Shown here: positions 12,469-18,195 of the stretch, piece after piece
How positions within the stretch are numbered: the first letter of the stretch is position 1
Layout of the letters: every line of letters starts with the position of its first letter
Source: Humisphaera borealis
GTDB lineage: Bacteria; Planctomycetota; Phycisphaerae; Tepidisphaerales; Tepidisphaeraceae
Direction: 5' to 3'
Assembly (NCBI RefSeq): GCF_015169395.1
Contig: NZ_CP063458.1
Coordinates: 3,534,001 to 3,598,000 of the forward strand
DNA: 64,000 nucleotides
Program-made: the position numbers and the translations under genes
Notes under the pieces: generated by a model
Told to the model about the DNA's origin: nothing
The model's input: only the letters and a program-made list of their open reading frames with translations
Database searches by the model: none

Positions 12469-14271
<1,803 letters not shown>

Positions 14272-14362
14272 GCCGGCCGGTTGTCCCGGCGGGCGAAGGA
14301 CCGGGCCACTGCCGGGCGGACGGAGGCCGGCCGGGGCGGCGCCGGGAGGCCGAAGCGCGGGA

Positions 14363-14770
14363 TTAACGCCTGGCGCGCCGGCGGGACGAAGCTGCCGGAT
14401 TCACGCCCGGCGTACCGGCTGCGGGCTGAGCGCCAGCAGGTCGCAGCGTCGCCGGGGCGCCGGCGACGGGAATGCCGCCGTTGGCCGGGGGAACCACGCC
14501 CGGCGGGCGTACGGCAGGCGCGCTGCCGGGCGGACGAAGGACCGGTGCCGCGCCGGCCGGACGCAATGTCGGGCCGCTGGGCTGACCGAGACGCGGACCG
14601 GCAGGCTGCCCGAGCGCCGGCCCGGCTTGCGGACGGGCGATCGGCGCGACCTTGCCGGCCTCGCCATTGCCGTTGCCGTTCGCCGCCGGCTGACCGGCAA
14701 CAGTGGGCTTGTTCGGCTGCTCAGGGGCTCCGCCGGGCGTCAGTCCTGTGGTCGTATCGGTACGTGACAT
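14363..14770 (-). pseudogene. Frameshifted Pro/Ala/Gly-rich N-terminal segment of the PilB-like gene
   Basis: 135 codons from an ATG at 14770 (MSRTDTTTGLTPGG...) encode a low-complexity run of LRPAG/LRPPG/GxP units ending in TPGVNPA, then an abrupt SSRRRARR and a TAA at 14363. Reading one base over at about 14388-14393 continues the pattern without a break (LRPAGAPGVNPALRPPG) and leads directly into the pilB-like frame, where that frame upstream is closed by a TGA. This is best explained by a one-base insertion (or two-base loss) in one original gene. Alternatives are a sequencing error, a programmed frameshift, or a short separate protein. Confidence 0.7.
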
Positions 14771-14786
14771 CAGTTCGTTCCTTGGT

Positions 14787-14887
14787 AGTACTCAGTACGG
14801 AGTACTAAGTGCCAGTGCATTCTTGGGGTCCACGCCAGTCCGTGCTTCTATCGATCGATCGCTTCCGTACTCCACTTCATACTCAGC
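14787..14887. repeat. Degenerate AGTACT-rich inverted repeat
   Basis: The gap between the PilB-like N-terminal segment and the pilT stop holds AGTACT-CAGTACGG-AGTACT on the left and a partly complementary GTACTCCACTTCATACTCAG on the right. The match is imperfect. Confidence 0.35.
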
Positions 14888-14888
14888 A

Positions 14889-16133
14889 CTACTTCTTGGC
14901 CATCGCCTGCATGCGGGCGCGGTTGGCGGCCATCGCGGCCTGTCGTTCGGCGTCGCTCTGGCCTCCGGGCGGGGCCGGTGGGCCCGGCTTCTTGGCCGCC
15001 GGGGCGCCGCCGTCACCTTCATCTTCCGGCAGCCCGAAGTCGTCCTTGTTCTTCAGGAACACGCCCTGCCGCTCCATCTTGTCGACCATTGCACCGGGGT
15101 TGCGGCTCTTGTCGACCGCCTCTTCGCCGCTGATACGCCCAGCGGTGAAGTGACCCCACAGGTTGTCGTCCAGCAACTGCATGCCGTAACGCTTGCCCGT
15201 CTGGATGTCGGAGTCGATGCGGAATGTCTTGTTTTCGCGGATCAGGTTCTGAATCGACGGCGTCACGTACATAAACTCGTACGCCGCACACCGGCCTTCG
15301 GTATCAACGCGTGGACAGAGCGTCTGGCTCAGCACGGCGATCAGGTTGTTGGCGATCTGCACCCGGATCTGCTCCTGCTGGTCGGACGGGAACGAGTCGA
15401 TGATACGGCTGATGGTGCTCGCGGCGCCGTTGGTGTGCAGCGTACCGAACACCAAGTGGCCCGTTTCGGCCGCCGACACCGCGGCACCGATCGTCACCAC
15501 GTCTCGCATTTCGCCGACCAGGATCACGTCCGGGTCCTGACGCAGGGCACGGCGGATGGCCTCGGCGAAGCTCGGCACGTCCACGCCCACTTCGCGCTGC
15601 ACCACGATCGACTTTTTGTGGTAATGGTAGAACTCGATCGGGTCTTCCATCGTGATGATGTGCCGGTCGAAGTTGATATTGATGTAGTTGATCATCGACG
15701 CCAGCGTCGTCGATTTGCCCGACCCGGTCGGCCCGGTCACCAGGAACAAGCCACGCGGGCGGCGACAGATCTGTTCGGCCATCTTCGGCAGGCCGATCTG
15801 CTCGAACGTGAGCATACTGTTGGGGATCTGCCGGAGCACCATGCTGGCGTTGCCGCGCTGTTTGAAGATCGAAACGCGGAAACGGGCCTTGTCGCCGTAG
15901 GCAAACCCGAAGTCGCCGGAGCCGGTTTCTTCGAACTCCTGCTGGACGCGTTCGGGGGTGATGGACTTCATCAGCGCGACGGTGTCTTCGGCCTCCAGGA
16001 CCTTGGTCTGAAGGTCGCGAAGTCCGCCGTGCAGACGGATGACCGGCGGACGCCCGACGGCCAGGTGCAAGTCGGACGCCTTGGTGCGGACGACGGTTTC
16101 GAGCAGGCGATCGATTTGGATTGTTGATGCCAT
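14889..16133 (-). CDS. pilT: Twitching motility/pilus retraction ATPase PilT
   Basis: A 414-residue hexameric ATPase that depolymerises type IV pili. The N-terminal PAS-like domain begins IQIDRLLETVVRTKASDLHLAVGRPP. The core has Walker A GPTGSGKST (134-142), the Asp box IITMEDPIEF, Walker B DVILVGEMRD, and the His box TGHLVFGTLHTN. It lacks the zinc tetracysteine of PilB, as expected for PilT. The C-terminus (from about 365) is a low-complexity Pro/Gly/Ala/Lys tail. It sits between two PilB-like genes, so extension and retraction motors are encoded together. Confidence 0.93.
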   Translation of the reverse strand: MASTIQIDRLLETVVRTKASDLHLAVGRPPVIRLHGGLRDLQTKVLEAEDTVALMKSITPERVQQEFEETGSGDFGFAYGDKARFRVSIFKQRGNASMVLRQIPNSMLTFEQIGLPKMAEQICRRPRGLFLVTGPTGSGKSTTLASMINYININFDRHIITMEDPIEFYHYHKKSIVVQREVGVDVPSFAEAIRRALRQDPDVILVGEMRDVVTIGAAVSAAETGHLVFGTLHTNGAASTISRIIDSFPSDQQEQIRVQIANNLIAVLSQTLCPRVDTEGRCAAYEFMYVTPSIQNLIRENKTFRIDSDIQTGKRYGMQLLDDNLWGHFTAGRISGEEAVDKSRNPGAMVDKMERQGVFLKNKDDFGLPEDEGDGGAPAAKKPGPPAPPGGQSDAERQAAMAANRARMQAMAKK

Positions 16134-16164: not shown

Positions 16165-16247
16165 AGGGTCCGCCTTGGCGGACGCAGACGCCACGATGTC
16201 TCGATGTCTCACCCGCGACGCGCTTCGCGTCCGCCGAGGCGGACCCT
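16165..16247. repeat. Inverted repeat, GTAGGGTCCGCC family, touching the pilB-like stop codon
   Basis: 21-bp arms at 16165-16185 and 16227-16247 match at 20 of 21 positions, and each arm is itself nearly palindromic (CCGCCTTGGCGG). The TAG stop of the upstream PilB-like gene (complement of 16246-16248) lies in the outer edge of the right arm. The same family is at 21546-21666. Confidence 0.85.
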
Positions 16248-18018
16248 ACGTCACGATTCCTTCGACCTGCGCCACCTTCACGATTTCCTCGGCCGTCGTG
16301 GTGCCGTTCATCACCTTCAACCGTCCGTCCTGGAGCAGGCTCTTCATGCCGCTGGCCAGGGCGGCTTTGCGGATCTTGTTGGTCGCCGCCCGTTCGAAGG
16401 CGAGGTTTCGAATCTCGCTGTTCATGGACATCATCTCGAACACGCCCAGCCGGCCGCGGAAGCCGATGCTGTTGCAGTTCTCGCAGCCGCGCGGCTTGTA
16501 GAGCGTCTTGTCCTTGCGGTCTTCCGGCTTGATGCCGATCAGCTTCAGCCACATCTCGTCGGGTTCGGAGTCGGGCTGCTTGCACTTGGGGCACAGCACC
16601 CGCACCAGCCGCTGCGCCATAACCGCCTGCAACGCCGAGGCGACCAGGAACGGCTTGACGCCCATGTCGATCAAACGCGTGATCGCGCCCGGTGCGTCGT
16701 TGGTGTGGAGCGTGCTGAACACCAGGTGACCCGTCAACGCCGCCTGGATGGCGACTTCGGCCACCTCCAAGTCTCGAATTTCACCGACCAGAATGATGTT
16801 CGGGGCCTGTCGCAGCATGGCGCGAAGCACCTTGCTGAACGTCAGGCCGATGCTGTCGCGCACCTGGCACTGGTTGATGCCGGTGAAGTTGTATTCCACC
16901 GGGTCTTCGGCGGTAATGATCTTGCGGTCGGGGCGGTTGAGCTCGTTGAGCGCGCCGTACAGCGTCGTCGTCTTGCCGCTACCGGTCGGGCCCGTCACTA
17001 GAAAAATGCCGTTCGGCCGCTTGATGATCTTCTGGAACGCCTTGTTGTCCTCTTCCTCAAAACCCAGGTTCGAGATGCCGATACGCACCGAGTCCGGCCG
17101 AAGAATACGCAGCACGCACGACTCGCCATGAACCGACGGCAGCGTGCTGACACGAAAGTCGATCTGTGCCTTGTCGACCTGCAGTTTGATTCGGCCGTCC
17201 TGCGGAAGGCGTTTCTCGGCGATGTCGATGCCGGCCATGATCTTGATACGGCTGATCATCGCACCCTTCATCTTGATCGGGATGCGGTCGCGAACGACGC
17301 ACTCGCCGTCGATGCGGTAGCGGACCTGCACGCGGTCTTTCATGGGCTCGATATGAATATCGCTCGCCCGGCTGCGGACGGCCTCGGCGATCATCCCTTG
17401 GACGAGCTTGATGATCGGGGCCTGGGCCGCGTCGTCGCCGTCGCCGCCCATCTTGTCCATGTCGATCGACTTATCGATCGACCGGATGGACGAGTCGAGC
17501 GACTTGTCCAGCGACCGGTCGAGCGTCTTGTCCATCGAGCTGAGGTTCTTGTCGACCGTCTGGTCGATCGTCATCTTCGACGTGAGGTTGAACATCTCGT
17601 CGATGACGGCCTTGATGTGGCTGCGCGGCGTCAGGATGGGCTTGATGTTCTTACCCAGCCGCATGCGCAGCACGTCCTGCATCTCCAGGTCGAGCGGGTC
17701 GTGGACGGCCACCCGAAGGACTCGGCCGCCGCCCTCCAGCCCCAGCGGCAGGATGATGTACTTGCGGATCAGGTCTTCGCCGATCAGTTGCGTGGCGTTC
17801 GGCGGGACGTCGCCGCGGGTGACGTCGACGTACTCCAAGTTGTGCTGCATCGCCAGGGCCTTGTAGACCTGGCTCTCGTTGCAGAGCTTGAGCTCGATCA
17901 GCGCCTCGCCCAGGCGAATGCGCTTGACCTTGGCGTGGTCGAGACCTTTCTCGACTTCCTTGTTGGAAATGACGCCCAGTTCGACCAGCGTTTCGCCGAG
18001 CCGTTTGCTCTTAGCCAT
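16246..18018 (-). CDS. GspE/PilB-family ATPase (second copy)
   Basis: A 590-residue extension-type ATPase. The N-terminal MshEN-like half starts MAKSKRLGETLVELGVISNKEVEKGL. A Ser/Asp repeat linker (about 151-190, units like DKTLDRSLDKSLDSS) precedes the catalytic core: Walker A GPTGSGKT (343-350), ITAEDPVEYN, NIILVGEIRD, TGHLVFSTLHTNDAP, and CPKC...CENC zinc cysteines. ATG 18018 is preferred over one 19 codons upstream because MAKSKRLGE aligns with family N-termini. First of three minus-strand motor genes. It may drive a type II secretion system while the other PilB-like protein drives pili, or the reverse. Confidence 0.92.
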   Translation of the reverse strand: MAKSKRLGETLVELGVISNKEVEKGLDHAKVKRIRLGEALIELKLCNESQVYKALAMQHNLEYVDVTRGDVPPNATQLIGEDLIRKYIILPLGLEGGGRVLRVAVHDPLDLEMQDVLRMRLGKNIKPILTPRSHIKAVIDEMFNLTSKMTIDQTVDKNLSSMDKTLDRSLDKSLDSSIRSIDKSIDMDKMGGDGDDAAQAPIIKLVQGMIAEAVRSRASDIHIEPMKDRVQVRYRIDGECVVRDRIPIKMKGAMISRIKIMAGIDIAEKRLPQDGRIKLQVDKAQIDFRVSTLPSVHGESCVLRILRPDSVRIGISNLGFEEEDNKAFQKIIKRPNGIFLVTGPTGSGKTTTLYGALNELNRPDRKIITAEDPVEYNFTGINQCQVRDSIGLTFSKVLRAMLRQAPNIILVGEIRDLEVAEVAIQAALTGHLVFSTLHTNDAPGAITRLIDMGVKPFLVASALQAVMAQRLVRVLCPKCKQPDSEPDEMWLKLIGIKPEDRKDKTLYKPRGCENCNSIGFRGRLGVFEMMSMNSEIRNLAFERAATNKIRKAALASGMKSLLQDGRLKVMNGTTTAEEIVKVAQVEGIVT

Positions 18019-18195
18019 GGTGAAGACTCCGGGTGGAAGCGCGAGCGGAAAACAAAAAGCGATGGAGCGACCCACCGCCCCGGCTCATGGAGTCCGGGCG
18101 ACCGCCGCGAGAACCTCGCCAGTAGATGTAACGTCGCGAAAGACAGCAGGTTCGAAGGAATCGCTCGCAGCCGGTCCGCGCAACTACTGCTGTGT

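Follow-up and report, generated by a model that had tools for sequence, protein, structure and literature searches.

The window analyzed here, a stretch of 64,000 nt from Humisphaera borealis (contig NZ_CP063458.1), carries three pilus-type ATPase genes in line on one strand between 12469 and 18075, which by coordinate are PilB-type, PilT and PilB-type. The gene under study is the first of these, together with the short open reading frame (ORF) directly upstream of it (Table 1). Its product combines a T2SSE domain containing Walker A (PF00437, 463 bits) with an N-terminal MshEN domain (PF05157, 53.3 bits), both above the Pfam gathering scores, which is the make-up of a PilB/GspE-type ATPase. 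The models for the type IV-A pilus assembly ATPase PilB (TIGR02538) and the type II secretion ATPase GspE (TIGR02533) match it end to end and nearly end to end, respectively, with 622.3 bits against a cut-off of 675.65 and 609.8 bits against 630.25. Since both scores lie below the equivalog cut-offs, we refer to the protein as PilB/GspE-type and not as PilB proper. It thus shares domain order, Walker A and a near-full model match with the MshEN-containing ATPases described by these profiles (TIGR02538, TIGR02533, PF05157 plus PF00437), but differs from them in its scores and in a long Pro/Ala/Gly linker ahead of MshEN, as also found in its family relatives.

Table 1. Features of the PilB/GspE-type ATPase locus (window coordinates).
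Feature	Position	Strand	Basis
PilB/GspE-type ATPase, MshEN + T2SSE, single open frame; earliest GTG 14271, earliest ATG 14202	12469..14271	-	
Remaining linker with LRPxG motifs, ATPase frame	14203..14391	-	motif positions
37-nt tandem repeat across the step, 2.2 copies, 80% matches	14339..14419	-	tandem-repeat search
Frame-step interval	14366..14400	-	stops of both frames; about 14394-14391 by repeat homology
Upstream ORF, start MSRTDT..., Pro/Ala/Gly/Arg-rich linker with LRPxG motifs	14363..14770	-	ORF and motifs; G001 start
PilT-family ATPase, next gene upstream	14889..16133	-	above NCBIfam cut-off
Second PilB-type ATPase, same gene row	16246..18075	-	profile matches

The PilT stop is separated from the start at 14770 by 118 nt, compared with 18-202 nt in relatives of the same family, and the PilB-type gene also follows a PilT gene in each of the 20 of these relatives whose 5′ end is complete. 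On the plus strand, a 733-codon open frame (12607-14808) lies antisense across the entire ATPase gene; it probably just mirrors GC-rich codon usage.

A one-base frame step within a tandem repeat

According to the ORF listing, the upstream ORF encodes 135 aa on the minus strand, from an ATG at 14770 to a TAA at 14365-14363. The ATPase frame, which ends at a stop at 12469, lies one base out of register with this ORF and is limited upstream by a TGA at 14403-14401. The two stop codons therefore confine the frame step to the interval 14400-14366, which repeat homology reduces to about 14394-14391; the step amounts to +1 relative to the first (14770) frame. Of the [LVAT]RP[AP][GS] motifs in the 600 nt downstream of 14770 (minus strand), those at 14566, 14539, 14512 and 14446 are confined to the first frame and those at 14391, 14355, 14325, 14298 and 14256 to the ATPase frame, and the third frame contains none, so that these LRPxG motifs switch frame exactly at the step. 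The sequence-only reading of this DNA had described LRPxG repeats running from 14770 and continuing in the ATPase frame. The continuation, beginning at 14391, was borne out, as were the two stops that close the frames; the repeats of the first frame exist too, but 14770 is the start codon and motifs appear only from 14566 onward.

Codon-usage scoring across the junction gave a weak signal in this GC-rich, low-complexity linker, with the third frame scoring best between about 14440 and 14320. The frame assignment therefore rests on repeats and homology and not on codon scores. In an analysis of base-composition periodicity, GC between 14391 and 14203 was lowest at the third codon position of the ATPase frame (0.70 versus 0.92 and 0.81), as expected for a Pro/Ala/Gly-rich frame; upstream of 14391 the periodicity is ambiguous (0.81, 0.73 and 0.73). 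The frame step is real in the deposited sequence.

The tandem arrays between 14150 and 14800 have periods of 37, 24 and 6 nt only, and no homopolymer or short-unit tract is present at the frame step. The 6-nt array (14663-14685) lies away from it, and any whole-unit change there would keep the frame. When the two 37-nt copies flanking the step were compared codon by codon by eye, each in its proper frame, their differences were mostly synonymous, which argues that the duplication is old, that it was translated on both sides, and that the step came later.

The linker in related genomes

For comparison with the genome of the window, a single contig of 7,189,892 bases, we used 25 other genomes of the family, one of them from the same genus. 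An ortholog with at least 71% identity is present in 23 of them, while G007 and G024 contain only matches of 42-47%. In three of the 23 orthologs (G001, G002 and G023) the contig ends in or beside the linker, leaving 20 with a complete 5′ end. Linker and motor form a single unbroken frame in every one of these 20. The two-frame pattern in our linker is more than chance, since the relatives have an N-terminus of this kind that shares one frame with the ATPase.

The linkers of these 20 relatives comprise 11-185 aa, of which 64-94% are Pro, Ala, Gly, Ser or Thr; an uninterrupted frame would give our gene an extension of about 190 aa, among the longest in the family. Linkers of only 11-25 aa (L017, L018, L029, L030 and L031) show that a long one is dispensable. 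With the ATG of each relative chosen mechanically, as the earliest in-frame ATG close to or beyond the PilT stop, the proteins mostly begin with MSR or MSQ, and SD-like pairing is -3.0 or better in all 20. The ATG at 14770 agrees with this pattern: it starts an MSRTDT sequence (compare MSRTDTQT in G011) and follows an SD-like AAGGA with a duplex energy of -5.4 (family mean -6.1).

The closest comparison is offered by the same-genus genome G001. On its contig C298, which ends 44 residues into the linker, the coding sequence begins MSRTDTTTGLIPDGAPEQ and retains the start MSRTDTTTGL. Over the first 19 codons, comparison with our gene gives 9 identical codons, 7 synonymous changes and 3 nonsynonymous ones. 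With synonymous differences prevailing, the frame opened at 14770 is genuinely coding. Taken with the start features and the repeats, this suggests that the upstream ORF is ancestrally the N-terminus of the ATPase. The G001 contigs stop short of the step region, so that the one-off status of the step rests on the other genera. C298 ends within the linker and contig C543 of the same genome starts within the ATPase (L131, L132), as if the linker had broken the assembly.

Between genera, the linker is, judging from our searches, too diverged for base-by-base comparison. A protein search with the linker in 26 family genomes, our own included, returned only weak matches besides the gene itself, one of them the true N-terminus in G001 (first 26 residues), and a DNA search gave no match at a corresponding place. 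Across the genera of the family (L009-L031), the length of the linker (14203-14770 in the window) spans 11 to 185 aa, with the motor remaining at least 71% identical. In more distant Phycisphaerae of other families, the extension measures 0-41 aa in nearly all loci, with L105 (91 aa) and L099 (unresolved) as exceptions; loci L038-L055 largely duplicate the same family genomes and were counted once only. Apparent inserts of 0.9 kb in some relatives' matches were considered as inteins and rejected, as the three examined (L058, L062 and L079) are ATPases that measure 575-577 aa from the core start and have no insert; the overlong matches are probably due to the upstream PilT being joined in. An apparent in-gene frame switch in L149 was likewise discarded, its translations looking like an ordinary two-gene boundary.

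Origin of the frame step

We consider it very probable that the locus reflects one recent one-base insertion or deletion, which fell in the tolerant linker of a gene that was ancestrally in one frame. The ancestral gene would have started at the ATG at 14770 and encoded, in one frame, a variable Pro/Ala/Gly-rich linker of about 190 aa followed by the MshEN-T2SSE pilus motor. A single one-base length change within the GC-rich 37-nt repeat would then have left the initial two thirds of the linker and the motor in different frames. The sequence-only reading had proposed one extra base in a GC-rich repeat, and this explanation holds, given a one-base step inside the 37-nt repeat and unbroken frames in all 20 relatives. 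The event would be recent, as the linker is in good condition on both sides of the step and the motor is free of decay: in single-deviant alignment columns of 21 sequences, the ATPase core shows no sign of decay, with 4 unique deviations compared with 0-6 in the other 20 sequences. Decay, which had also been listed as an outcome, thus finds no support for the ATPase itself. In its one-base step, intact flanking frames and lack of conservation, the locus resembles ordinary frameshifted genes and the residual indels of long-read bacterial assemblies, and we regard the frame step in the linker as an ordinary event. It differs from the latter in its position, since long-read errors arise most often in homopolymers and the step lies outside one.

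Whether the change is a mutation or an error is about evenly balanced. A residual sequencing or assembly error in the GC-rich tandem repeat of this closed genome, behind which the true gene is continuous and the normal long protein would be made in the cell, has in our estimate only just less than an even chance. The site is GC-rich and repetitive, with two similar 37-nt copies, and short-read polishing is reported to be unreliable in repeats (PMC8812927). The three orthologs cut at the linker suggest a stretch that is hard to assemble, although these genomes are fragmented MAGs. An intact motor core and the lack of a strong internal start fit a continuous gene as well.

Against an error stand the position of the step outside a homopolymer and the quality of the remaining assembly. 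A codon-model screen for frame switches, covering 360 kb of this genome, found 58 frame changes on the same strand. In 55 of these, the second gene has an ATG close to the stop of its predecessor, and the other three are separate genes with gaps of 30-103 nt and GTG or TTG starts, as at ordinary gene boundaries; no clear in-gene frame switch was detected elsewhere in these 360 kb. Single-base deletions planted as controls were seen as a frame switch in 39 of 42 cases and flagged, that is, also seen without a nearby ATG, in 21 of 42. The step studied here was itself not flagged, its linker codons scoring poorly. The screen could therefore miss about half of such steps and is blind in low-complexity linkers, but in ordinary genes the assembly appears to be clean.

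A real recent indel in the strain, possibly acquired in culture, is a serious candidate, to which we assign somewhat less than an even chance. The GC-rich repeat is prone to slippage, the assembly looks clean elsewhere, and the linker is dispensable or tolerant, so that a downstream start still gives a complete motor domain. Translation from 14770 would then yield only the 135-aa linker peptide, and the motor would be either missing or produced in small amounts from the weak internal starts, GTG 14271 or ATG 14202. SD-like pairing at these starts (-4.0 and -3.2, respectively) is weaker than at the family starts (mean -6.1, n = 20), which speaks against this possibility, though the weakest family start reaches only -3.0. 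Relaxed selection is not seen either, as expected for a very recent event.

Reversible switching of the motor, by slippage or by repeat recombination in the linker, had been put forward as a phase-variable outcome and seems very unlikely. Words of 10-14 nt are common to the repeats of both frames, spaced by 214-280 nt, all 1 mod 3, so that a deletion between the repeats would rejoin the start and motor frames. However, these words are short, the step lacks the hypermutable simple tract of phase-variable genes, a second state was not seen, and the relatives keep one frame. Nor did any title among the literature matches listed for PilB with phase variation and frameshift describe such a case. 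We see only a very slim chance that the linker is a contingency region, in which recombination or slippage between LRPxG repeats toggles between a long-linker and an out-of-frame motor; if so, this would explain the wide differences in linker length between genera. A programmed ribosomal frameshift giving two products, as also suggested from the sequence, is the least probable origin: both frames are open to a stop near the step, which is +1 relative to the first frame, but the step is absent in all 20 relatives, we recognize no slippery heptamer or prfB-like site there, and folding of the surrounding strand, computed with DNA parameters, is no stronger than that of shuffled sequences (z 0.19).

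Under the favored reading, a single recent indel in an ancestrally continuous gene, the locus calls for caution in annotation, as automated procedures will split the gene or shorten the motor. For the family, a linker ranging from 11 to 185 aa on one motor ATPase is a modest evolutionary curiosity.
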